The notes beneath the pieces were generated by a model that did no database searches, was not told where the DNA came from, and was given only the letters and a program-made list of their open reading frames with translations. From the NCBI GenBank assembly GCA_011042225.1, contig DQXT01000015.1, positions 1-48,322 on the forward strand: 48,322 nt of DNA, given 5' to 3'. The stretch is from Deltaproteobacteria bacterium (GTDB lineage Bacteria > Desulfobacterota > Dissulfuribacteria > Dissulfuribacterales > UBA3076). Each line of letters opens with the position of its first letter. Within the stretch, counting starts at the first letter, position 1. The translations under genes were made by a program, and so were the position numbers. This document shows, one piece after another, positions 2,344 through 48,185 of this stretch.

Positions 2344-3999
2344 CTAACCTATATTTTCTGCCTGTCTCCTATATCCGTGGCAAACCGGATATCTGCGGCC
2401 ATAACCAAAGGCCCTGGTAGTAACCCTGGGACCCATGGGGACTTGGTGACGCTTATACTCGCTGCGGTCGACCATTTGTATTATTCTGTATACTGTATCC
2501 GGATTAAAACCCTCTGCGATTATCCGGTCTGGCGGGGTGTTCTGTTCCAGGTATTTCTCAAGTATTGCATCCAGAATGTCGTAGGGCGGAAGATAGTCCC
2601 GGTCCTTTTGCCCCGGCCTCAGCTCCGCCGAAGGCGGCTTTGTCAGCACCCGCCTGGGGATTATCTCCTTCTCTGAGTTGAGATATCCAGCCACTTTATA
2701 CACCATGGTCTTAGGTAAATCAGAGATAAGGGCAAAACCCCCGCTCAGATCTCCGTAAAGTGTACAATAACCAACCGCTAGCTCCGATTTGTTGCCGGTA
2801 GAAAGAACCAGGTGGCCGAACTTGTTTGATATGGCCATGAGCAGGTTACCCCTGATCCTGGCCTGTATGTTCTCTTCAGTAACATCCCGCCCTTTTCCTT
2901 CAAAAACCGTTTCAAGGGTCTGAAGATATGAATCAAAGATACCTGATATGGGAGTTACAATAGTCCGGATTCCCAGGTTTCGGGCCAAGGCCTCTGCGTC
3001 CTCAATACTTGTTTCTGATGTATAAGGAGAAGGCATTATGACTCCAAGCACATTTGCAGGGCCAATGGCCTGTGCAGCAACTGCGGCGGTTAGAGAAGAA
3101 TCTATGCCGCCGCTCAGGCCCAGAATGGCCTTGTTGAAACCGCATCTGTCTGTATAGTCTTTCAGGCCCAGCTTGAGTGCCTTTACCACAGCTTCTTCTT
3201 TAGAGACCGAGATCGTGTGCTTTTCACCTTGCCGGGTGTCTGTGTCCACTGTGACCAAATCCTCTGCAAAGTCCTTTGCCTGGGCTATGATTTCTCCGGT
3301 AACATCAACAGCCATGCTGCCACCATCAAATATCAGACAATCCTGCCCACCGACTGCATTGATATAAAAAAACGGCCTGCGATATTTGGCGGCAAGGCGG
3401 CTCAGGACATGATAGCGAAAAGCGGCCTTTTCTATATCAAATGGAGAGGAATTTATTGTGATAAAGACATCAGCACCCTTTTCTGCAAGTTCAGCCACCG
3501 GGTTAACAGAGTAATGGCGTTCGGAGAAGACGACGCTGTCATTCCAGATGTCCTCGCATATGGTAACGCCGATAGAGAGCCCCTTAAAGTTTACCGGGGT
3601 ACTCCCGGTTCCCGGCTCAAAATACCTGGCTTCATCAAAGATATCATAGCTGGGAAGGAGCCGCTTATGCACCTCAGCCAGGACTTTTCCGTCTTCAAAC
3701 AGAATGGCTGTATTATGTATGGGTTTCCCGGCCCCTCTGGTATTCAGTGAAACGCAGCCATACAGGACGGCAATCCCCTTTACTTCTGACATCAGGCGAT
3801 CCGCAGCCCGCAGGTTTTCCTGTATAAATTCTCTGCGTTCCAGCAGATCCAGCGGGGGATAACCACATACCGCAAGCTCAGGGAATATGATCAGCTCACA
3901 CCCTTCCTCTCTGGCCTTACCCGCAAGGCGAATCATATGAACTACATTGTGCTTAAAGGCCCCTATTGCAGGATCATATTGTGCCAGACCTATTTTCAC
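2344..3999 (-). CDS. nadE: Glutamine-hydrolysing NAD+ synthetase
   Basis: A 551-residue two-domain enzyme. The N-terminal nitrilase-like glutaminase has the Glu-Lys-Cys triad at Glu41 (FPEL), Lys112 (HKRLLP) and Cys148 (TICED). The C-terminal synthetase has the ATP pyrophosphatase loop SGGIDSS near residue 295 and STGNKSE further on. It converts deamido-NAD+ to NAD+ using ATP and glutamine-derived ammonia, the last step of NAD biosynthesis. The length fits the bacterial glutamine-dependent form. It is followed closely by the HD nuclease and holB. Confidence 0.95.
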   Translation of the reverse strand: MKIGLAQYDPAIGAFKHNVVHMIRLAGKAREEGCELIIFPELAVCGYPPLDLLERREFIQENLRAADRLMSEVKGIAVLYGCVSLNTRGAGKPIHNTAILFEDGKVLAEVHKRLLPSYDIFDEARYFEPGTGSTPVNFKGLSIGVTICEDIWNDSVVFSERHYSVNPVAELAEKGADVFITINSSPFDIEKAAFRYHVLSRLAAKYRRPFFYINAVGGQDCLIFDGGSMAVDVTGEIIAQAKDFAEDLVTVDTDTRQGEKHTISVSKEEAVVKALKLGLKDYTDRCGFNKAILGLSGGIDSSLTAAVAAQAIGPANVLGVIMPSPYTSETSIEDAEALARNLGIRTIVTPISGIFDSYLQTLETVFEGKGRDVTEENIQARIRGNLLMAISNKFGHLVLSTGNKSELAVGYCTLYGDLSGGFALISDLPKTMVYKVAGYLNSEKEIIPRRVLTKPPSAELRPGQKDRDYLPPYDILDAILEKYLEQNTPPDRIIAEGFNPDTVYRIIQMVDRSEYKRHQVPMGPRVTTRAFGYGRRYPVCHGYRRQAENIG

Positions 4000-7367: not shown

Positions 7368-8657
7368 TTAAAATTCTATGGCTATTTGACTGAAAAACAG
7401 GTCCCTTGAATCTCTGTCTTCAACATCAGATTTATCGTATTCGTCATAGAGATAGCCGAAGGAAAGTATCGTATTGTCAAAAATTTCCTGGTTAAAGTTT
7501 ATGCCATAACGATCTTTAGGAAATCCAAAATACTCGCAATCATTGGACCCTGCATACTTAATGGCGATCTCCAGATTTCGCCACCAGTTGTAATTATAGC
7601 CAACCTCAACGTTCCATACTTCCATATTTTCTACTTTTCCCACATCAGTGACATCGAAGGATCTCTCGATGCATAACTCCGCATTATCAGTAGCCGCCAT
7701 GTACTCAGCGTCAAAAAACAGGCCTTTATATCCAACATGGAAATAGGCAGCAGTACCCCCGACATAATCAGCAATATCAGCTCCGAGGCCGTCCAGTGCA
7801 TCTGTCAACCCGTCGGCCTCAAATACGTTGGAGATATATGATCCTCCGACCAGAAAATCTAAACCGCTATCCTCGTCTTCAAAGGCATAGTTGGCATCGA
7901 GACCGTAACTTTCAACAACATTATCGCCATCACCCCCGGCTTCTTCGACGTCACCGTTAAAGACATAACCTGAAACAGCAAAACCTTTATATTCAGCTCC
8001 GATTAATACGGCCTTCTCTGATGTCTCACCCATGGTGAGAGTCATAGGGACGTCGATAAGGGGATCATCAGGGAAATGCTCCAGGAGTGAACCATAAGGC
8101 ACGTACATCTTGCCGCCTTTGAAAAAGAAAGGAAACTTTTCCGTATTCCCCAGAGTGATAAATGCCTCATCAATGTCCACGCTTGTTTCCTCTCCAAAGG
8201 TGGCGTCTTCATACAGCAACACCATTTCCCCATTTACCCAGTCATTGACTTCTGCTGAAATTCCGATTTGAGCGGTAGTCAGGCAAATGTCGCTGTCCTG
8301 TTTATGACCTTCCCTTTTCCTGTCAACGCTCTGATAAGCACCTCCAAATTCAAGCAGGCCATTGATGGTGATGCGGTTTTCCAGATCAGACAAAAAGCCC
8401 GTGGCAGGTGTCTTTTTCTCCAGTTTTTCTTCTATCTGGCTAACCCGCCGTTCTACCTCAGCAGGCATAGTCTTCGCTTTCATTTCGCTGAGTTGCTGTT
8501 CCACTTGCTTCAGTCGATCAGTCAGGAACTGATTTTGTCGGATCAGTTCCTGTACCTGCTGTTCAAGACCAACCTCGGCCGCAGAAGAACCTGGAATCCA
8601 GGAAATTATTGCCATTCCCGCCATGAACAAGCTCAATAATAAAATCCTCCGATTCAT
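7368..8657 (-). CDS. Outer-membrane porin, LbtU-like
   Basis: A 429-residue protein. A signal peptide (MNRRILLLSLFMAGM, cleavage near residue 27, after SSA) is followed by a short coiled coil (about 30-75, EQQVQELIRQNQFL) and then a long, acidic, aromatic-rich region with alternating beta strands ending in Phe (AIEF). This is the layout of outer-membrane beta-barrel porins. ITINGLLEFGGAYQS recalls the LbtU-type siderophore porins, but the ligand cannot be told from sequence. I chose the ATG at 8657 because AGGGAGAAGG precedes it and the signal peptide starts there. A riboswitch-like leader (8756-8840) and a half operator (8719-8732) lie upstream, linking it to the iron locus. Confidence 0.75.
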   Translation of the reverse strand: MNRRILLLSLFMAGMAIISWIPGSSAAEVGLEQQVQELIRQNQFLTDRLKQVEQQLSEMKAKTMPAEVERRVSQIEEKLEKKTPATGFLSDLENRITINGLLEFGGAYQSVDRKREGHKQDSDICLTTAQIGISAEVNDWVNGEMVLLYEDATFGEETSVDIDEAFITLGNTEKFPFFFKGGKMYVPYGSLLEHFPDDPLIDVPMTLTMGETSEKAVLIGAEYKGFAVSGYVFNGDVEEAGGDGDNVVESYGLDANYAFEDEDSGLDFLVGGSYISNVFEADGLTDALDGLGADIADYVGGTAAYFHVGYKGLFFDAEYMAATDNAELCIERSFDVTDVGKVENMEVWNVEVGYNYNWWRNLEIAIKYAGSNDCEYFGFPKDRYGINFNQEIFDNTILSFGYLYDEYDKSDVEDRDSRDLFFSQIAIEF

Positions 8658-8718
8658 AATACCTTCTCCCTTTAATAATTTTTTGTTGTATTTTAAGTGC
8701 ATGAATTTATAATAATTA

Positions 8719-8732
8719 TTAGACATAAATAA
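8719..8732. promoter_or_regulatory. Weak match to the DtxR-type operator upstream of the porin gene
   Basis: TTAGACATAAATAA shares its left half with the TTAGACATATCTAA boxes at 17576 and 18395, but the right half is degenerate. It lies between the riboswitch-like leader and the porin start. It may be a weak site or chance in AT-rich DNA. Confidence 0.3.
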
Positions 8733-8755: not shown

Positions 8756-8840
8756 AAATAAAAGGCGCAACATGCCTGTTTTTATTCAGCCTTGCTGCGC
8801 CTTCACTTGTTCCGCCCTGAGTCGAAACCCGTAAGACAAA
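8756..8840 (-). promoter_or_regulatory. Riboswitch-like leader, copy 1 (upstream of the porin gene)
   Basis: The most divergent of three related leaders. In the transcribed direction it has GTCTTACGG, an inner stem (TTTCG with CGGAA), then AAGTGAAGGCGCAGCA. The last part can pair with TGTTGCGCC, followed by TTTT, to form a terminator. GUCUU near the 5' end can also pair with AAGGC, so the two stems exclude each other. It may also end transcription from the gene upstream (stop at 8864). See copies 2 and 3 at 13695-13790 and 17158-17248. Confidence 0.6.
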
Positions 8841-8863
8841 ATTAAGTCCGGTCAATCACTCTA

Positions 8864-9688
8864 TTATTCGGTTATATCAAGGGCCTGTACCCATATAACT
8901 GCATCCTGGGAGAGTTCCTTTCCATTGTAGTTAAGATCTCCGCCTGCTCCCAGCGCTGCAAAACCCCACCAACCTGCTTTAGGAATACCGAATACAAACT
9001 CACCGTTTGCATCTGCTTTTATAGTCATGGTAATCAGGGCATCGTGGGGGGCTTCTATCTTGGCCTCCCGAGCAAAGGCATTCCCTGTCACATCATGATT
9101 GAGGTACTCTACCTCGATCTGTGAATATGGAACCGGCTTTCCTTGGCATGTTACGATGCCGCGGAAGACATTTCCCGCCCAGAGTGCATACGGTTTGTCC
9201 AGGGGAACAATTTCCACGGGCAGAGGATCACCCACCGGCTGATCCCAGTCTGTCGGGGCGCCGGCAACATTGAATATGACTTTTGTGCAATGCTGAATAT
9301 AGATGTCCTCCGAACCTTCATAATAAGGTGCAGGAACAAAATAGAATATATGATCCCCTATTCCTTTGAGTCTTATATCGGCCTCATAGGCCTTGCCTTC
9401 ATTGGTAAGGCTTTTAAAAATGATGGGTTTCAGCGTATCAAGCAGATTTCTTTTCTTTCCCTTGTTCATTTCACCAAAAGCAACAGGGGGATGAATTTCC
9501 CCTCTTTCATCTTTTCCCATATCCATGGTGTGACCTGCCTCAAACGGATGGGTAAACACAAGCTTCAGGTTAAGTTCTTTTGATTTTGGCACGCTGTCCG
9601 GCGAATACATCATCTGAAAATGGGCATAGGCCGGCGCATGCCATACTATAGAGGCTACAGCAATTATTAGTGCACATAATTTTTTCAT
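8864..9688 (-). CDS. DUF4198-type periplasmic protein
   Basis: A 274-residue protein with a signal peptide (MKKLCALIIAVASIVWHAPAYA) followed by HFQMMYSPDSVP, the usual opening of DUF4198 (NikK/CbiK-like) proteins. The expected conserved segments are present: LVFTHPFEAGHTMDMG, then beta-rich regions and a C-terminal GIPKAGWWGFAALGAG. Family members are often found beside cobalt, nickel or iron uptake genes and are thought to act in the periplasm on metal delivery; the ligand is unproven. His residues in the first 60 positions could bind metal. It is the last of three secreted proteins after feoB. Confidence 0.78.
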   Translation of the reverse strand: MKKLCALIIAVASIVWHAPAYAHFQMMYSPDSVPKSKELNLKLVFTHPFEAGHTMDMGKDERGEIHPPVAFGEMNKGKKRNLLDTLKPIIFKSLTNEGKAYEADIRLKGIGDHIFYFVPAPYYEGSEDIYIQHCTKVIFNVAGAPTDWDQPVGDPLPVEIVPLDKPYALWAGNVFRGIVTCQGKPVPYSQIEVEYLNHDVTGNAFAREAKIEAPHDALITMTIKADANGEFVFGIPKAGWWGFAALGAGGDLNYNGKELSQDAVIWVQALDITE

Positions 9689-10950: not shown

Positions 10951-13458
10951 TTATGTAAATTCCGTTTCTCTCCTGATAAGACCCATTGATATAAGAAGCA
11001 TTAAAGCCAGGATATAAAAGGTAATCATGGCCTGAAATCCGGATAAGCCCAGTAAATTTCCTCCGGTGAATACAAGAATAGATATAATTATGCCCAAAAC
11101 TATGGGATAAAAGGTGGCAAACAACATCCATTTCGTGCTTGCAGTTTCCAGATGAATCATCATCAGGGTGGGGATACAAGGAGGATACATGGCCATGAAG
11201 AGCATTATGGCCAGCGCATGAAGAGGAGTCCAGCCTTCTTCTTTTTCCTTTATCCTTTCTTCCAGGGTCTTTTGTTCCCCTGAAGATGACTGGTAAATTC
11301 CTCCCAGGGTAGCCACACTGTTTTCCTTTGCGGCGAATGCGCTTATAAGGGCAATGTTTATCCTCCAGTTAAAGCCGGCCCACTGGGTTAATGGCTCCAT
11401 AAATCTTCCGGCGCGACCCATGAAGCTGGAGATAATCGTCTCCTCATTTTGTTCTCTTCGAAGCCTGTTCCTTGTCTTATCCAGCGCTTTGTAGGCATTA
11501 TATACATCTTTTGCCTGTTTATCTTTTGCAAGTCTGCCTCTTGTTTCATATTTCCCTCTTTTTACGACTTTGAAAAATTCCAAATTTTTTGCTCTGAATT
11601 TCTGGTCAATAGCCTCCATCGCCTCCTTACCCTTAGCCCCCATCTTCGCCTTTCTGTAATCATTCCAATAAGCACTGAATTTAATTAAGTTATCACCGGC
11701 TATAATACTGGCATAAGGATTATCTTCCCCTATTCTGTTAAAGAAGTCCTGTTGTACCTGATTACCCTGAGCAATGAATTGCGCCTTTCTTTCTTTACTC
11801 AGGCCGGGAAGGTAGAGAAGGGCATACACAACAGCAGAAACTGCAATAACAACAGTAATGATCTTTTTGACAAACAGCCATGTCCTCTCCAAACAACGGG
11901 ACAGCACACCCTGAACAGTAGGCATATGATAGGGAGGCATCTCCATGACAAATGGTGCACTCAATCTCTTTTTCAGCACGGTAAGATTCAGGATTTTGGC
12001 TATGGAGAGAGCTATGATAATGGTGATAGAGGCTATAAAAAACATGGCAATTCCCTTATATGCAGCGAAAAAAATGCCTATCATAAGTACATAAAAAGGA
12101 ATTTTGGCCAGACAATTCATTAATGGCATGATCATGATGGTCGCCATTTTGGCCTTCTCATCTTTCATGGCCCTGCATGCCATAACTCCGGGTACGGCAC
12201 AACCGCCCACATAAAGCCCCCCTATAACCATGGGGAGAACAGACTGTCCGTGGAGACCGAAGTGTCTGAATATTCTGTCCAGAATAAAGGCCATCCTGGC
12301 CATGTAACCGGTATCTTCCAGGATAGCGATGAGTGCAAACAGAATAAGAAAGATGGGGATATAATTGAGAACGGCAATGGTTCCGTCCATGACCCACAGG
12401 GATATGGAACGAAAAAAGGGATCAAAGACAAACCCTTCAGACGGAAGGAGCAGGGCAACGATATCCCGCAACCATGCAAGCAAGGGCCAGGTGTAAGCGG
12501 TTATTTTATATCCCTGTACTATAGCCAGATCATACATTATATAAATAGTAGCGGCTAATATAACAGGACCTGAAAAACGGTTGCATGCCGCGCTGTCGAT
12601 CTTATCCGTAAGTGTTCTGGCAAATTTTTTCTCGCGGAATACGCTTGTTTCAATAATTTTCTGGGCATTGGTATGCCGTGATACGGCAATCACCTTTCTC
12701 GGTGATTTTTTATATTTTTGGATAAAGTATGCAGTCTTTTCTTCCACAAATGCCAAAATCTGATCATTTTCATTCGAGTATCTTCTGATAGCTCTTTGTG
12801 CCTCTTCATCGTTTTCCATCAACTTTACGGCAAGCCACCGCAATGGATATCTCTGTGAAAGGCCGGGATCTTCTGAAAGCCTCTTTTCAAGGGAACACAG
12901 GATCGGCTCTAATGCCTCGCCGTAGCTGATATGAAATGGGACAGCATCTACTTTTTTAGAGCTTTTCAGGATCGCCTGCCTTAATTCATCTTTACCTCTG
13001 CCCTTGTTTCCCACCGTCGAAATCACCGAAACTCCTAGTTGATGACTCAGTCTTTCCTTGTTGATCTTATGTCCACGCTTTTCTGCTATATCCATCATGT
13101 TAAGATTCGCCACAATAGGAATACCCATCTCTGCTACTTGAAACAACAGATACAGGCTTCTCTCTAAATTGGAGGCATCCATTACATCAACCACTACATC
13201 AGGACTTTCCGTAAGCAGAAAGTCTCTGGCAATCCGCTCTTCCTCAGTATAAGAAGTAAGGCTGTAGGTTCCTGGAAGGTCGACCAGTTCTATACAAATC
13301 CCATCATGATGGAAGAAGCCGCTCTTTTTTTCGACTGTCACACCCGGATAGTTGGCTATATGCTGCCTGGCCCCGGTGAGCATATTGAAGATTGTGGACT
13401 TTCCAGAATTTGGCTGTCCGACTAAGGCCACAACGATTTTGTCAGGTTTACTGCTCAT
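10951..13458 (-). CDS. feoB: Ferrous iron transporter FeoB
   Basis: An 835-residue inner-membrane protein that takes up Fe(II). The N-terminal G domain has G1 GQPNSGKS (14-21), G3 DLPGTYS (from residue 60) and G4 NLNMMD. Two gate regions with repeated hydrophobic helices follow, with the GGLYVGGCAVPGVMACRA motif in the first. A long hydrophilic insert (KAKMGAKGKEAMEAID onward) lies between the gates and is larger than in E. coli FeoB. The start overlaps the feoA stop by 4 bases (ATGA). Confidence 0.95.
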   Translation of the reverse strand: MSSKPDKIVVALVGQPNSGKSTIFNMLTGARQHIANYPGVTVEKKSGFFHHDGICIELVDLPGTYSLTSYTEEERIARDFLLTESPDVVVDVMDASNLERSLYLLFQVAEMGIPIVANLNMMDIAEKRGHKINKERLSHQLGVSVISTVGNKGRGKDELRQAILKSSKKVDAVPFHISYGEALEPILCSLEKRLSEDPGLSQRYPLRWLAVKLMENDEEAQRAIRRYSNENDQILAFVEEKTAYFIQKYKKSPRKVIAVSRHTNAQKIIETSVFREKKFARTLTDKIDSAACNRFSGPVILAATIYIMYDLAIVQGYKITAYTWPLLAWLRDIVALLLPSEGFVFDPFFRSISLWVMDGTIAVLNYIPIFLILFALIAILEDTGYMARMAFILDRIFRHFGLHGQSVLPMVIGGLYVGGCAVPGVMACRAMKDEKAKMATIMIMPLMNCLAKIPFYVLMIGIFFAAYKGIAMFFIASITIIIALSIAKILNLTVLKKRLSAPFVMEMPPYHMPTVQGVLSRCLERTWLFVKKIITVVIAVSAVVYALLYLPGLSKERKAQFIAQGNQVQQDFFNRIGEDNPYASIIAGDNLIKFSAYWNDYRKAKMGAKGKEAMEAIDQKFRAKNLEFFKVVKRGKYETRGRLAKDKQAKDVYNAYKALDKTRNRLRREQNEETIISSFMGRAGRFMEPLTQWAGFNWRINIALISAFAAKENSVATLGGIYQSSSGEQKTLEERIKEKEEGWTPLHALAIMLFMAMYPPCIPTLMMIHLETASTKWMLFATFYPIVLGIIISILVFTGGNLLGLSGFQAMITFYILALMLLISMGLIRRETEFT

Positions 13459-13679
13459 AATGGCTTCACTTCTATCTTTTTGGCCTCTGAATGTCGCAGG
13501 CTGATGTGATATCCCTTCACCAAAAACTCAACCGGATCTACAAGGGGTGCATTCCGTACAACTCTTACTCGGACCCCCGGAATAAATCCCATATCCAAAA
13601 GCCGTTGCCCTATAATATCTTCAGTGATAATATCAATAACTTCGCATTCCTGATCCGGCTTAATCTCATCTAATGTCAT
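13455..13679 (-). CDS. feoA: FeoA, SH3-like partner of FeoB
   Basis: A 74-residue protein of the FeoA family (small SH3-like fold): GQRLLDMGFIPGVRVRVVRNAP and the C-terminal HISLRHSEAKKIEV are typical. FeoA binds or modulates FeoB in the cytoplasm. I chose the ATG at 13679 because AGAGAGA lies at the right distance; a TTG two codons upstream would be too close. Expression is probably controlled twice: by the riboswitch-like leader at 13695-13790 and by the inverted repeats at 13802-13832. Confidence 0.93.
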   Translation of the reverse strand: MTLDEIKPDQECEVIDIITEDIIGQRLLDMGFIPGVRVRVVRNAPLVDPVEFLVKGYHISLRHSEAKKIEVKPL

Positions 13680-13694
13680 TTTCAATTCTCTCTA

Positions 13695-13790
13695 AAAACA
13701 AAAAAGGCGTAACCTCCGCCTTATATAAGGCTTCGAGTTACGCCTTCACTTTCATCCGCGCCTTTAGGGGCCGGAGACCGCAAGACATAC
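13695..13790 (-). promoter_or_regulatory. Riboswitch-like leader, copy 2 (upstream of feoA-feoB)
   Basis: In the transcribed direction: ATGTCTTGCGG, then an inner stem-loop (TCCG-GCC, loop CCTAAA, GGC-G-CGGA), then GAAAGTGAAGGCGTAAC. GGCGTAAC pairs perfectly with GTTACGCC, with a small GCCTTATATAAGGC hairpin inside, and is followed by TTTTTTG: an intrinsic terminator ending about 20 bases before feoA. ATGTCTT can instead pair with AAGGCGT, destroying the terminator. Two exclusive stems around a conserved core is classic riboswitch layout. I do not recognise the class. Confidence 0.72.
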
Positions 13791-13801
13791 CTAATAAATT
13801 T

Positions 13802-13832
13802 TTAGTGTCTAATTAAATTAGAGCTATCTAAT
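13802..13832. promoter_or_regulatory. Tandem DtxR-type operator boxes upstream of feoAB
   Basis: The stretch holds TTAGTGTCTAA and, overlapping its flank, ATTAGAGCTATCTAAT, whose arms TTAGA and TCTAA are 4 bases apart. The same arms and spacing are found at 17576-17589 and 18395-18408, beside the DtxR-family gene. It lies just upstream of the riboswitch-like leader, where the feoAB promoter must be. Repression by the metal-loaded regulator is inferred. Confidence 0.6.
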
Positions 13833-13914
13833 ACCCCAGTGAAAAAACGATGTCAACACTTTTTTTAAAAAAAAGCGGAATAATCTCAAGTCAATGCCCG
13901 ACCACTGCAATCAA

Positions 13915-14040
13915 TCACGGGATGAATTTTACAAAGCCCTCATTGCCCCCACCTGATTCGGCACTGCCGAAAGGACTCCAAACGATCAGCCCGGCTTCGG
14001 GAGTATGGAAGTATGCCTTTTTTTGATTAGAGATCAGCAT
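13915..14040 (-). CDS. Possible small protein or gene remnant (41 aa)
   Basis: An ATG-initiated frame of 41 codons with the segment TPEAGLIVWSPFGSAESGG, rich in Gly, Ser and aromatic residues. No good ribosome binding site precedes it. It reads more like the C-terminal end of a larger protein than a complete one, so it may be a remnant left in the spacer between the DUF2325 gene and the feo leader. I do not recognise the family. Confidence 0.25.
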   Translation of the reverse strand: MLISNQKKAYFHTPEAGLIVWSPFGSAESGGGNEGFVKFIP

Positions 14041-14140
14041 GTTGAGTGATTTAGAGCCCTATTATTCCCCGTTTACCTGTCTGAGCCATACGAAAGAGAA
14101 GACATGCACACCAATGGTAATACATTGCTATCAATACGTG

Positions 14141-14242
14141 TCATCGCAGTACTTGCCAACTTGGTGCTGCATAATTTGGGATGATAGCCCATCCCGGGTA
14201 GATCTCTTTCGCTTTCTGTAGCGAATCTTCCATATCGATCAT
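14141..14242 (-). CDS. Possible small protein (33 aa) directly after the DUF2325 gene
   Basis: The ATG lies 8 bases after the DUF2325 stop codon and is preceded by GATAAGAGAAAAA. The peptide begins MIDMEDSLQKAKEIYPGW and continues AIIPNYAAPSWQVLR before a TGA. It has a plausible helix followed by a Pro/Trp-rich segment. The frame stays open for about 29 codons beyond the TGA, but nothing there looks conserved. It is either a short translated gene or the decayed start of a longer one. Confidence 0.3.
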   Translation of the reverse strand: MIDMEDSLQKAKEIYPGWAIIPNYAAPSWQVLR

Positions 14243-14250
14243 TTTTTCTC

Positions 14251-15528
14251 TTATCCTGTTATTTTCGAAAGGGTTTTATAGACAGAGTTGGCACTGGGAT
14301 GTCGCACTACGTTGAATTGTTTTCCAGTCTTCTTGCACGTAGCCTTTACTATTTTCAAGGCCCCATGACTATTGATACTGGTGATAAATAAAACGATGTT
14401 AGCCTTACAGACCACGTTTTTTAGAACATGGCGGCCATTGGAGCAATCTCCGTTATGGAAAAGAAAATCCGCGCCCAAGTCATGAATTGTGCTACGATAT
14501 TCGGATTCCAAACGATCAAGGCCTCCTATTACTGCTACACGCATGCCTTCCAGAGGACAACGGCATTTCTTCTGTTCTGTACAGTGGCTGCAGTCTCCCC
14601 GGGCATCCTCAGGGCGAAGTAAAGTAACCACGTTACCAGCCTGAATATCCTCTTTTTTAATCGGCTCTGCGTTATGTCCTGCGGATTGGTTTTCATCCCT
14701 GACGTGCATATATGATTCAATAAGTCTCTCATATTCAGCTATCTTTGTATTTGCCTGTTCAAGCTCGTAGGTAAGCTTCTTTGCTTCGTGTTTCAAGGTT
14801 GCTTCTCGAAATGGCCGTTGTCTCAACTCTGTCAACTCCTGGAAGTATTCAGCCAGCTTCTTATTGAGTTTTAATATTTCCGTATTCTTTTTCAGTAATT
14901 GCTCTTTAAATGTATGTTTTACTGAATCTTCAGACATATTGACCTCAGAGTGAAATTGACGTCCTTCATGGGTCTTTATGCCTTGTTTTTTCTTTGTGAC
15001 ATTGTGATTCAGGACAAAAAGGCCGAGCTTGAGCTGGTTAGAATTTTCCATAAGTCGCCAGATAAGAGAATGTGTCAGAATTTGGGCCTGTTTGCGCATT
15101 TCCGATCTGGAGTCAGTGCTTGCTGCCCATAAAATTGGCGCAGGCCACTGTATGTCTCCAATTGACTTTGCCAAGTCCTCAGGGGCCATGGAACGGACCT
15201 TCGACGGCGCAACGGAAAACCGACGCTTAAAGTAGCGGTAGAGTTCCTTTGCGACGGATCTTTCAGGGTCGTGACTGTAATGATAAAGGCTCCAGAGCTC
15301 GTAACCCAAATGCAAACCAGGCTTACTGGACTCGAGATCATGCTTCCTACACATTTTATGTATATCTTTGGGATTTATAGCCATGGCCAGGAGTAATGCC
15401 AGAGTTACGCAGTCGGGTAACGGAATTTTACTTTCTTTTACTGTATTGCATGAAGGTATAGCATGATTGTCTATGACTTTAACGGTGAGGTCTGCCTGAT
15501 TTTTGGAATTTTCTACGATATTTTCCAT
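14251..15528 (-). CDS. DUF2325 domain protein with coiled coil
   Basis: A 425-residue cytoplasmic protein. The first 200 residues are helical and unassigned; residues about 205-270 form a coiled coil (KKNTEILKLNKKLAEYF). A Cys cluster (CSHCTEQKKCRC) precedes the C-terminal DUF2325 domain (about 328-425), which starts RVAVIGGLDRLESEY and contains FHNGDCSNG. The start is supported by AGGAGG 6 bases upstream. It lies 63 bases after the histidine kinase gene and probably shares its transcript. The function of DUF2325 is unknown; the CxxC-rich linker could bind a metal or respond to redox state (inference). Confidence 0.78.
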   Translation of the reverse strand: MENIVENSKNQADLTVKVIDNHAIPSCNTVKESKIPLPDCVTLALLLAMAINPKDIHKMCRKHDLESSKPGLHLGYELWSLYHYSHDPERSVAKELYRYFKRRFSVAPSKVRSMAPEDLAKSIGDIQWPAPILWAASTDSRSEMRKQAQILTHSLIWRLMENSNQLKLGLFVLNHNVTKKKQGIKTHEGRQFHSEVNMSEDSVKHTFKEQLLKKNTEILKLNKKLAEYFQELTELRQRPFREATLKHEAKKLTYELEQANTKIAEYERLIESYMHVRDENQSAGHNAEPIKKEDIQAGNVVTLLRPEDARGDCSHCTEQKKCRCPLEGMRVAVIGGLDRLESEYRSTIHDLGADFLFHNGDCSNGRHVLKNVVCKANIVLFITSINSHGALKIVKATCKKTGKQFNVVRHPSANSVYKTLSKITG

Positions 15529-15591
15529 TACTGCCTCCTGACAGATGTTATTTCTTGAGATTCAATTGCAATTATTGGCTGAATTAATGTT

Positions 15592-16521
15592 TTATCCCAG
15601 CATACCGTTGCGGTTGTTATGTTGTACCTCATTTTCCACCTGCAAGGGCAGAAAGACCTCAAAAGTGCTTCCCTCCCCAGGGATGCTCGTCACGTCAATC
15701 CATCCGCCCCGCCGATGGATCAGGGCAAAGATAATAGCAAGGCCCCATCCCCTCTTTCGACTTTTTCCATTCACTTCTTTGGTGGAAAAGAGGGGATCGA
15801 AAATCCGATCAAGCATATCCTTATGCATACCTGATCCGTGGTCGCATACAGAAAGGACTGCAAAGGTCCCTGGGTAAGCGTTCCCGTGCTGCTGACAGTA
15901 ATAATTATCAACAATGCGTTTGGAAGTTCCGACAAGCAGATTTCCCCCTTCTGCCATTGCCTCCCGGGCATTGACCGCAAGATTGCTCAAGATCCGCCAT
16001 ATGTCGCATTGGTTTAACAGAACAGGAAGAGGATTGCCGCAGGGGGTAAAATGTAGATTGATATTCTCGTTGAAAGATGATCTCAGGGCATCAAGGACCA
16101 GTTCTGTCTCTACATTTAAATCCCTGTGGACCAGTTCCACTGTGATATCGTCAGGCTCGAGGGCCTGTAGGCAACTAACCAAGCCTTTCATGTTATCCAA
16201 GACCTTGCGTACAGCTAATACTTTCTGTCGTATATCAGGTTGAAGGAATTCCTTTTCGAGTAGATATACTGTAGCCCCGATGGCCAGCAGACCATTATTG
16301 AGGTCATGGCACAAGCCACTGGCCAGGTGCTCCATGGATGCCATTTTCTTGATCTGGACAGCCTCCGCCACTGCGTGATCTGTGGAATCCAAAAGGTCCC
16401 GAATGGTACTCAGAGAGTCACGGACGTCCGCAAATACTGTGCCGCTAACAGCATGTGCTACATTCCCTATTGGGCGCTTTCGTGTGACTCGACCGCGTAT
16501 GGATGTTCGACTTCCTACCAT
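15592..16521 (-). CDS. Soluble sensor histidine kinase (orphan)
   Basis: A 309-residue kinase with no membrane segment. The phospho-acceptor region is LASGLCHDLNNGLLAI with His72, the N box is ILSNLAVNAREAM, the G1 box is VCDHGSGM, the F box is IFDPLFSTK and the G2 region is GWGLAIIFALIHRRGG. This is the HisKA/HATPase type related to NtrB-like kinases. The first 60 residues are a short helical input region without a recognisable PAS domain. No response regulator gene is adjacent. The start has GGAGAT at good spacing. Its place inside the iron locus suggests, but does not show, a role in metal or redox response. Confidence 0.85.
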   Translation of the reverse strand: MVGSRTSIRGRVTRKRPIGNVAHAVSGTVFADVRDSLSTIRDLLDSTDHAVAEAVQIKKMASMEHLASGLCHDLNNGLLAIGATVYLLEKEFLQPDIRQKVLAVRKVLDNMKGLVSCLQALEPDDITVELVHRDLNVETELVLDALRSSFNENINLHFTPCGNPLPVLLNQCDIWRILSNLAVNAREAMAEGGNLLVGTSKRIVDNYYCQQHGNAYPGTFAVLSVCDHGSGMHKDMLDRIFDPLFSTKEVNGKSRKRGWGLAIIFALIHRRGGWIDVTSIPGEGSTFEVFLPLQVENEVQHNNRNGMLG

Positions 16522-16641
16522 AATTTTATCTCCATTAATTCAGAATTATTTCTTTGTTTATTGATAAACTAAATTTATTATATTTCGCGGATTCAACTCC
16601 TTAAGCTGCCAGCCGATCCGCAATCTCCTTTCATTCTCGTC

Positions 16642-17140
16642 TCATCCTTGCTTTATATTTCGTACATGCCTCGTCGCTGTACACGGCACCCGAAGTCTGC
16701 GTTTAATGCTTGCGCCACATTCTGGGCATACACATTGGCCTCCGGGCCCCAGTCCGCACCTTGCTTCTTTTTTAGAAAAAGTTGGGTTCTCTGAAGCCTC
16801 AGATGTCGTCGCAGGATTCTCCAGTTCTCCAGCGCGATAAGTATCAACAGCCTCCCTAATCTCCCCTTGGATACCGGTAATCACTATTATGCCGCCCTTT
16901 TAAATACCTTAAGGGCATTAGGGCCGACTCTTTTGGCCATGACCGTCTTTTATTACATGCTGTTCAGCCATCCATTGAGCTGCATGTATGCCTGCCCCTC
17001 TATCTGCTGTTCTAATGGATTTTCTCTGGCCTGAAATAAAAGGGCATCCGGATCGATCACCATAAAATATCAGCACCTTCTGAATCTCGAATCTATGAGC
17101 GTATCCATTTCTTTCCTGAAACTGGCAAAGCCAATTTTAT
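16642..17140 (-). pseudogene. Decayed NifX/NifB-C-terminal-like gene with zinc-ribbon tail
   Basis: Fragments of one protein family occur in order but in different frames. First come ALPVSGK (17134-17114) and EMDTLIDSRF, then a TGA, then MVIDPDALLFQARENPLEQQ, then GAGIHAAQWMAEQ in a second frame, VGPNALKVFK in another, and finally VITGIQGEIREAVDTYRAGE with a Cys-rich tail CVCPECGASIKRRLRVPC. This is the order of the dinitrogenase iron-molybdenum cofactor (NifX-like) domain followed by a zinc ribbon. At least three frameshifts and two stops break it, and the start codon is ATA after a strong AGAAGGAGG. The 240-base open C-terminal piece (16642-16884, GTG start) could still be translated. Riboswitch-like copy 3 lies just upstream. 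Confidence 0.75.
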
Positions 17141-17157
17141 CTTTTTTACCTCCTTCT

Positions 17158-17248
17158 AAATAAAAAGGCGCAACCCAATGTCTTTTTCTCATCGAGTTAC
17201 GCCTTCACTTTCATCCGCGCCTCTAGGGACCGGAGACCGCAAGACATC
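17158..17248 (-). promoter_or_regulatory. Riboswitch-like leader, copy 3 (upstream of the NifX-like pseudogene)
   Basis: Nearly identical to copy 2 in the core: ATGTCTTGCGGTCTCCGG, then CGCGGATGAAAGTGAAGGCG. The inner stem has GTC/GGC where copy 2 has GCC/GGC. The terminator pairs GGCGTAAC with GTTGCGCC followed by TTTTTATTT; its inner loop is unrelated to that of copy 2. The pairing is kept while the sequence differs, which supports the structure. The ribosome binding site of the decayed gene follows directly after the T tract. Confidence 0.72.
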
Positions 17249-17258
17249 CCTGATTTTT

Positions 17259-17552
17259 TTATTTTGCCTCTATCAATATCTGAGTAAGCTTTTTACGCAA
17301 TAACTCCAATCTCCTAGATTTAAATGCCTTTCTGCTCTCTTCCAGGACATCTATGGCCTCCGTAATGGCCTGTTTTAATTTGTTTTCATTAGGGAAATAA
17401 GCAGGCAAAGCCATTTGTTTTATGGTCTCAGCATCCACCCTTTTCTGCAATAAAGCGGTTATAAGACCGCATTGTATATCTATTTTCTGATGAAGTTCTT
17501 CAGCACTTCTATTAATGACAGCGACAAGATCTTTTTTAATATCCGTTTCCAT
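17259..17552 (-). CDS. Small helical protein of unknown function in the dtxR-feoA cluster
   Basis: A 97-residue, wholly helical, charged cytoplasmic protein (METDIKKDLVAVINRSAEEL at the start; KAFKSRRLELLRKKLTQILI near the end). It has a single Cys and no metal motif. An exact operator box (17576-17589) lies 23 bases upstream of the ATG, so it is probably controlled by the neighbouring DtxR-type regulator. I do not recognise the family. A FeoC-like helper role would be a guess. Confidence 0.65.
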   Translation of the reverse strand: METDIKKDLVAVINRSAEELHQKIDIQCGLITALLQKRVDAETIKQMALPAYFPNENKLKQAITEAIDVLEESRKAFKSRRLELLRKKLTQILIEAK

Positions 17553-17575: not shown

Positions 17576-17589
17576 TTAGACATATCTAA
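17576..17589. promoter_or_regulatory. DtxR-type operator upstream of the 97-aa gene
   Basis: TTAGACATATCTAA: arms TTAGA and TCTAA with a 4-base centre, identical to the box upstream of the regulator gene (18395-18408). The right flank also matches: both are followed within a few bases by ATTAAGGTA. Two identical 14-mers in front of two genes of one cluster are unlikely by chance. Confidence 0.65.
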
Positions 17590-17606: not shown

Positions 17607-17822
17607 TTATCCCACGATTATCTTACTGGCCATACCATAACCGATAACGAGCCTGGAATCTTTTAAGGCTATAATAACCGGACCACGTCCGTTCCGGTTT
17701 AAAACCCTTAGACTTACCCCAGGCACAAGTCCCATACTATAGAGTTTTGATCTTATTCCTGCACCTCCGCTTATATCTATAAGTGTTACTTCTCTTTCTG
17801 TATCAGCATTACTGAGGACCAT
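17607..17822 (-). CDS. feoA: Second FeoA-like protein, coupled to the DtxR-type regulator
   Basis: A 71-residue FeoA-family SH3-like protein: GIRSKLYSMGLVPGVSLRVLNR, then ALKDSRLVIGYGMASKIIV. It overlaps the end of the regulator gene by 14 bases and has a strong GGAGGGG before its ATG. It has no FeoB directly next to it; the transporter with its own feoA is 4 kb downstream. Stand-alone FeoA proteins may act with FeoB or with the regulator. Here coupling to dtxR favours a regulatory or accessory role (inference). Confidence 0.88.
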   Translation of the reverse strand: MVLSNADTEREVTLIDISGGAGIRSKLYSMGLVPGVSLRVLNRNGRGPVIIALKDSRLVIGYGMASKIIVG

Positions 17823-18378
17823 TGTGGTCTCCCCTCCTCTTTTCCATAGCTTCTATTTTTTCTTTAAAGTCATCTACAAATTCTTTCATATGCTCCAGGC
17901 ATTTTGCTCTATTTTTATCTTTTTTCCCATACTCATCAAAACGATCAAGCCAGTTTGTACCGACTCGAGGACAGGATTGGACAAACTCCATAAATGCTAT
18001 GAACCTGTCCAGTGTTGAAGAACTGATCGCATGCTCCATCTTACAGGCCTCTTCGTCAGCTATTGCAGGATCAATATTTAAAATATCCATCAAAAAACTG
18101 CGTAAAACACAGTGCCTTCGATATATTTCTTTTCCGATATCCCTTCCATCATCCGTCAGCTCTAAATATTCATATTTTTCGTAATTAATCAGTTCCCGCC
18201 TGCTGAGGGTCTTGAGCATATTGGTAACTGTCGGCATCTTTACCCCAAGCCTTTTGGCGATATCTTTTACTCGAACTACCCGTTTTTCCTTGTCTAGATT
18301 AAAAATAGCCTCCAGATAATCTTCCATTGCGTGTGTCAATGGTTTTGGCACGGTATTTCCTGTTTTCTTATTTTTCAT
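17809..18378 (-). CDS. DtxR/MntR-family metal-dependent repressor
   Basis: A 189-residue regulator. The N-terminal winged helix (EDYLEAIFNLDKEKRVVRVK, then IAKRLGVKMPTVTNMLKTLS) is followed by the metal-binding dimerisation domain with the characteristic EEACKMEHAIS segment (Glu, Cys, Glu and His ligands). No C-terminal SH3 domain is fused, but a separate feoA-like SH3 gene follows and overlaps, as if the two modules were split. The operator-like palindrome at 18393-18410 lies 15 bases before its start, which points to autoregulation. The gene context favours iron; manganese cannot be excluded from sequence. Confidence 0.9.
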   Translation of the reverse strand: MKNKKTGNTVPKPLTHAMEDYLEAIFNLDKEKRVVRVKDIAKRLGVKMPTVTNMLKTLSRRELINYEKYEYLELTDDGRDIGKEIYRRHCVLRSFLMDILNIDPAIADEEACKMEHAISSSTLDRFIAFMEFVQSCPRVGTNWLDRFDEYGKKDKNRAKCLEHMKEFVDDFKEKIEAMEKRRGDHNGPQ

Positions 18379-18392
18379 ATATCAGGATATTT

Positions 18393-18410
18393 TATTAGAC
18401 ATATCTAATA
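18393..18410. promoter_or_regulatory. DtxR-type operator upstream of the regulator gene
   Basis: TATTAGACATATCTAATA has 7-base arms (TATTAGA and TCTAATA) around CATA. It is the best copy of the box repeated at 17576 and 13818. A candidate -35 TTGACA (18453-18448) and TAATTA (18430-18425) lie upstream on the minus strand, so the box would sit just after the promoter, a position that blocks transcription. The divergent lipoprotein gene starts at 18591. The rest of 18411-18590 is AT-rich without a gene. Confidence 0.65.
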
Positions 18411-48109: not shown

Positions 48110-48185
48110 TGGTAGGCGGTACTGGATTTGAACCAGTGACTTCCACCGTGTGAGGATGGCACTCTAACCGCTGAGTTAACCGCCC
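48110..48185 (-). tRNA. tRNA-Val (anticodon CAC)
   Basis: A complete cloverleaf: acceptor GGGCGGT with ACCGCCT, D arm ACTC..GAGT, anticodon stem CCATC/GGTGG with loop CTCACAC (anticodon CAC, reading GUG), T arm ACTGG-TTCAAAT-CCAGT, discriminator A and an encoded CCA. The first acceptor pair is G-U rather than G-C, which is unusual but tolerated. Confidence 0.93.

Follow-up and report, generated by a model that had tools for sequence, protein, structure and literature searches.

Metal-sensing riboswitches (NiCo/czcD and Mn yybP-ykoY) are cis-acting leaders of metal transport genes with terminator platforms; to our knowledge, none of the protein-dependent antitermination systems is dedicated to metal uptake. 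Among systems that do rely on an antiterminator protein, the licT gene adjoins its RAT site directly on the 5′ side (PMC1489936), and in the ANTAR antiterminators (EutV and NasR) a small helical RNA-binding domain stabilizes an antiterminator that excludes the terminator (PMC8934654). In delta-proteobacteria, iron-uptake genes, including those of hypothetical porins, are under palindromic operators, the Fur boxes (PMC545781). Here we describe three hairpins that are probably the targets of protein-dependent transcription antitermination for iron uptake, under the control of a DtxR-type repressor. A search of the open-access literature found no paper matching such an iron-linked antiterminator or riboswitch.

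The window (the whole stretch of DNA analyzed, 48,322 nucleotides) carries an iron-uptake locus on its minus strand. A sequence-only reading of this DNA had described three minus-strand leaders with a common motif (8756-8840, 13695-13790, and 17158-17248), and all three were present as described. GUCUU pairs with AAGGC in each of them, and the longer pairing claimed for copies 2 and 3 was found as AUGUCUU/AAGGCGU. A search of the 2.05-Mb genome with the pattern GTCTTRCGG-N20..45-AAGTGAAGGCG returned exactly three matches, which are the three leaders, and the reversed pattern, used as a control, returned zero. With RNAfold, the isolated cores of all three copies formed a hairpin of two stems, P1 and P2, and the full leaders of all three formed the terminator. 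The hairpins and terminators are as follows, with scores under R1, a covariance model built from eight cores.

17196 to 17249, minus strand: hairpin copy 3 (P1 AUGUCUU/AAGGCGU, core GCGG/AAGUG, and P2), 10 nt past the stop codon of the 97-aa gene; R1 score, 61.1 bits
17162 to 17205, minus strand: intrinsic terminator of copy 3, with the P1 3′ strand as its 5′ arm
13737 to 13790, minus strand: hairpin copy 2, in the feoA-feoB leader; R1 score, 60.7 bits
13700 to 13746, minus strand: intrinsic terminator of copy 2, which shares sequence with the P1 3′ strand
8794 to 8841, minus strand: hairpin copy 1, with the DUF4198 gene before it and the porin-like gene after it; R1 score, 58.7 bits
8757 to 8803, minus strand: intrinsic terminator of copy 1, which shares sequence with the P1 3′ strand

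Two other origins of the motif were rejected. A dispersed repeat would not be expected to occur just three times in the genome, to lie each time on the same strand as the gene behind it, and to keep P2 paired while its sequence changes. A regulatory palindrome acting as DNA rather than RNA does not fit the nearly invariant U-G pair in P1, the many G-U pairs, or, again, the fixed orientation relative to the downstream gene.

The genes around the three leaders are the following.

17809 to 18378, minus strand: DtxR-family iron-dependent repressor (PF02742, PF01325)
17607 to 17822, minus strand: FeoA-domain protein (PF04023)
17259 to 17552, minus strand: gene of a 97-aa helical protein, a putative RNA-binding antiterminator, matching no Pfam or NCBIfam family
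13455 to 13685, minus strand: feoA, downstream of copy 2
10951 to 13458, minus strand: feoB, ferrous iron transporter (PF02421, PF07670, PF07664)
8864 to 9688, minus strand: DUF4198 periplasmic protein, upstream of copy 1
7368 to 8726, minus strand: porin-like outer-membrane protein, downstream of copy 1, with no Pfam match above the cutoff

Directly behind copy 3 (16885-17150, minus strand) lies a frameshifted NifX/Nitro_FeMo-Co-like remnant, judged by eye; its pieces (KLALPVSGK.. and EMDTLIDSRF..YFMVIDPDALLFQ) are the decayed NifX-like gene reported earlier. In the relative M55B156 (G005; L012/L103), the small gene is followed directly by a single leader and feoA. That genome is without the segment between copies 3 and 2 (the pseudogene, a HATPase_c protein, and a DUF2325 gene; window positions 13690-17255), as if it had been deleted by recombination between the two leaders, which are 94% identical. 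DUF2325 proteins with coiled-coil N termini recur behind the hairpins (window positions 14251-15528; L011:12692-13552).

At the gathering cutoff, the sole match of Rfam 15 (4,227 models) in the whole window was a tRNA at 48113-48185. Relaxed E values gave only chance-level matches at the three hairpin sites, and a scan of six related loci gave no match, which bears out the earlier proposal that the RNA is not of a known class. R1 found matches in 27 of 395 Desulfobacterota genomes at an E value of ≤0.01, 18 of these at an E value of <1e-6, and R1 matches and loci of the 97-aa protein together yielded 88 distinct motif copies. In their common fold, the outer stem P1 and a variable, strongly covarying stem P2 flank the core RCGG/AAGYG, which is nearly invariant. 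Two details extend the original description: a pair of inner base pairs (R-U and C-G) continues P1 inward past a bulged G, and a tandem G·A mismatch (GG/AA) lies between P1 and P2. Copies from another family of the same phylum (G055) read GUCUUACGG-CCCCUG(n7)CAGGGG-AAGUGAAGGCG, so the motif is a simple interrupted helix.

In an alignment anchored on the core and not on the stems, 90% of P1 cells were paired, versus 41 to 65% when slid by 1 to 3, and the corresponding values for P2 were 92% versus 45 to 62%. The six top-scoring covarying column pairs all fell within the proposed structure, and P2 covaried beyond a tree-based null at pairs 15-26 (E ~ 0) and 19-22 (E = 0.007). Compensatory double changes on the tree numbered about 4 in P1 and 27 in P2. 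P1 also carried 32 single changes that preserve pairing, and it is too conserved for any of its pairs to be individually significant against the same null. Variants such as GUCCU/AGGGC and AUCUU/AAGGU still pair. In other phyla the P1 sequence differs and pairing is kept: Hydrogenedentota has GUCCU/AGGAC, with the inner A-U pair changed to G-C, and Omnitrophica has CGUUUU/GGAACG. P2 varies freely in sequence and length, and its apical loop is variable. Both homologs in related genomes (by covariance model) and covariation among them (against the tree-based null), the two things to be looked for according to the sequence-only reading, were found, and the RNA part of that reading, a new RNA class, is well supported.

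In 78 of 87 copies, the hairpin is followed by an intrinsic terminator that builds its 5′ arm from the P1 3′ strand, counted as such when four or more of the strand's first seven bases take part. Each of these 78 holds two mutually exclusive helices, one of them an intrinsic terminator, as in an attenuator; the exclusion between antiterminator and terminator proposed from three leaders is a property of the family. Because the P1 3′ strand is the terminator 5′ arm, P1 is the antiterminator, and its stabilization turns the gene on. The proposed ON switch is supported in the form of an iron-linked ON element. The hairpins form a family of transcription attenuators without an Rfam entry, whose members occur across Desulfobacterota and in a few further phyla. 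At L011:13805-13849 and L045:3349-3393, a tandem second hairpin with the core AAGGG, versus AAGUG, lies near the ribosome binding site of a DUF2325 gene; no U-run was found downstream of the one at L011:13805.

The contexts of the motif are overwhelmingly those of iron uptake. Across loci, its neighbors are feoA, feoB, dtxR, ExbB/ExbD/TonB, TonB-dependent receptors, porins, and DUF4198 and DUF2325 proteins; the linkage to feo and porin genes suggested at first recurs, joined by TonB genes. The Ignavibacteria locus has FeoB and then an OprB porin, the Omnitrophica locus has FTR1 followed by a TonB receptor and ExbB, and the Eisenbacteria locus has TonB receptors. The exception is the Hydrogenedentota copy, which sits before a DUF1559 prepilin-like gene.

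The 97-aa protein is conserved at the protein level across phyla, and its family has a conserved, basic C-terminal segment (LEExxKAFKSKxLExLRKxL). An AlphaFold model of modest quality (pLDDT, 75; pTM, 0.38) has three long helices and one short one; KAFKS lies where the penultimate helix turns into the last. Searches of solved structures and folds with this protein gave nothing significant and no known RNA-binding fold. About half of the homologs (L011:8113-8421, L011:13950-14264, L053, L054, and L055 among them) have a Cys/His cluster in midprotein (e.g., CxxxxCxxxDCPH), possibly a metal site, which is absent from the window protein.

The protein was found in 25 of the 395 genomes and in 16 of the 18 motif genomes (those with an R1 match at an E value of <1e-6), an association with a hypergeometric P value of 2.4e-20 when phylogeny and physical linkage are ignored; co-inheritance as one physically linked locus explains part of it. 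Of the two motif genomes without an intact protein gene, one is 66% complete and the other has a decayed gene remnant just upstream of the motif. In G127 (L045, about 3150-3250), the 97-aa gene is decayed to a remnant and P1 has an A-C mismatch, a single case that hints at the protein gene and the motif decaying together. Nine genomes with the protein initially had no strong motif match. Six of these have the motif just downstream of the protein gene, and in a seventh (G200) the weak match is a real copy; no convincing motif was found in G135 and G215, where the protein matches are weak. DtxR was rejected as the specific partner of the motif because PF02742 is present in 235 of the 395 genomes.

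In an independent scan of GTDB species, the 97-aa protein turned up at 62 loci, 50 of which have a motif detected by R1. By eye, three further loci from other phyla have motif-like hairpins after the protein gene; the protein gene precedes such a hairpin even in Omnitrophica and Hydrogenedentota. Three loci (L139, L146, and L164) have a clear protein and no detected motif, and a search for more relatives in 145 Omnitrophota genomes returned only the one already known. The protein gene lies directly 5′ of the hairpin in most loci, its stop codon usually tens of bases before the motif. Desulfosarcina widdelii and D. alkanivorans each have one protein gene and three motif copies. In some genomes (L058, L140, G426, and G446), the motif is kilobases from the protein gene or on the opposite strand, so the link between protein and motif is not only in cis. 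Co-occurrence, synteny, and the conserved basic segment suggest that the 97-aa protein binds the hairpins and antiterminates.

The genome has three sites of a palindrome, TTAGATANNTCTAA, and no more, each of them within the iron-uptake locus. These sites and a nearby promoter are listed here.

17576 to 17589, minus strand: palindrome TTAGATATGTCTAA in the promoter region of the 97-aa gene, a candidate DtxR-type operator
18395 to 18408, minus strand: palindrome TTAGATATGTCTAA in the promoter region of the dtxR-feoA operon
13818 to 13831, minus strand: palindrome TTAGATAGCTCTAA over the −10 box of the promoter of copy 2 (feoAB leader)
13828 to 13856, minus strand: TTGACA-17-TATTAG, which by eye resembles a promoter, upstream of copy 2

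The promoter scan did not list TTGACA-17-TATTAG because its −10 box is without the final T. Of 41 other loci, 19 have a similar palindrome, matching at 9 or more of 10 fixed positions, 34 to 72 nt before the protein gene, versus 0.9% of shuffles. We read TTAGATANNTCTAA as the putative operator of the DtxR-type repressor.

In the mechanism that we propose, the Fe(II)-bound DtxR-type repressor would shut its own promoter in this locus and also the promoters of the 97-aa gene and the feoAB leader. Iron would be the signal; when it is scarce, the repressor would be relieved, the three promoters would open, and the 97-aa protein would accumulate. Without this protein, polymerase in each leader would stop at the terminator that uses the P1 3′ strand (AAGGCG...). 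When present, the protein would recognize in the emerging transcript the irregular helix (the RCGG/AAGYG core between P1 and P2) and stabilize P1, which would sequester the terminator 5′ arm and let polymerase read through into feoAB, porin, or TonB-receptor genes. The outcome would be greater expression of ferrous-iron and outer-membrane uptake genes at low iron.

We also think it likely, with slightly less assurance than for the role of the three hairpins, that this locus exemplifies an undescribed iron-starvation cascade in Desulfobacterota, sporadic in other phyla, that runs from a DtxR-type repressor through a new family of small RNA-binding antiterminator proteins to a new family of hairpins in feo, TonB-receptor, and porin leaders. 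If so, many sulfate-reducing and related anaerobes would have a second, so far missed layer of iron-uptake control, built from an RNA family and a protein family that are both absent from the public libraries searched. An orphan protein family would gain a function, and the regulon would be predictable from sequence, for example, in Desulfosarcina widdelii and Desulfacinum infernum.

The sequence-only reading called the element a riboswitch, and in this respect it is not supported as stated: almost perfect co-inheritance with one small protein and a short irregular-helix core are the layout of a protein-bound antiterminator (LicT-RAT), not of a metabolite aptamer. In a riboswitch, the RNA alone would bind Fe(II), another metal, or a cofactor, the ligand would stabilize P1, and the 97-aa protein would merely belong to the same regulon. 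The highly conserved core, the terminator-overlapping P1, and the exclusive link to metal uptake are riboswitch-like traits, but the single protein with which the element nearly always co-occurs is usually encoded 5′ of it and not behind it, and the core has neither a pseudoknot nor a multiway junction and is joined to a freely variable P2. An ON switch that binds iron would, moreover, raise uptake at high iron, which is the wrong sign for uptake genes. We therefore regard a riboswitch as unlikely, and as less likely than a protein-dependent antiterminator.

The stop codon that precedes P1 by just 5 to 40 nt in many loci would also suit translation-coupled attenuation, in which a ribosome at the end of the upstream gene masks the 5′ strand of P1 and so sets the terminator, the sequence of the protein being irrelevant to the RNA. 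Copy 2 argues against such coupling, since a promoter-like sequence of its own precedes it and no gene adjoins it upstream on the same strand, as do the copies that lie kilobases from the gene or on the other strand (L058/L140, G446, and G426) and the conservation of the 97-aa protein as a protein across phyla; we give this explanation very little credence, the least of those weighed here. Hardly more probable is a protein of the opposite sign, which would destabilize P1 or promote termination and so exert negative feedback on iron uptake. Binding could in principle favor either fold, and a palindrome common to the 97-aa gene and the operon controlled is also expected of a feedback repressor. 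The conserved core, however, belongs to the antiterminator fold and not to the terminator, so the simplest assumption is that the RNA is antiterminated when bound.

Protein-dependent antitermination invites comparison with the BglG/SacY/LicT-RAT systems, where a hairpin with conserved internal loops or bulges likewise overlaps an intrinsic terminator and the regulator gene lies directly 5′ (PMC1489936). Here, too, the regulator gene adjoins its RNA target and the controlled operon in most loci. Unlike BglG, SacY, and LicT, the 97-aa protein has no Pfam match and neither a CAT nor a PRD domain, and it is all-helical in the model; the RNA core is different, and the genes serve iron uptake rather than sugar uptake. 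With the ANTAR systems (PMC8934654) the locus shares a small helical protein, proposed here to bind RNA, and mutual exclusion of antiterminator and terminator. ANTAR proteins, however, read hexaloops, with A1 and G4, in paired hairpins, whereas in the present RNA, a single interrupted helix, conservation lies in an internal helix and the apical loop is variable. Nor does Pfam give an ANTAR match for the 97-aa protein. The NiCo/czcD and Mn yybP-ykoY riboswitches are likewise cis-acting metal-transport leaders with a terminator platform, but they are multihelix junctions without a protein partner, in contrast to the single interrupted helix without an Rfam match found here. As in DtxR/Fur control of feo operons, where hypothetical porins are among the genes controlled (PMC545781), iron-uptake genes are associated here with palindromic putative operators. 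The palindrome TTAGATANNTCTAA differs from the published dFUR box (PMC545781), and the locus would add a further layer to such control, an RNA hairpin with a small protein.
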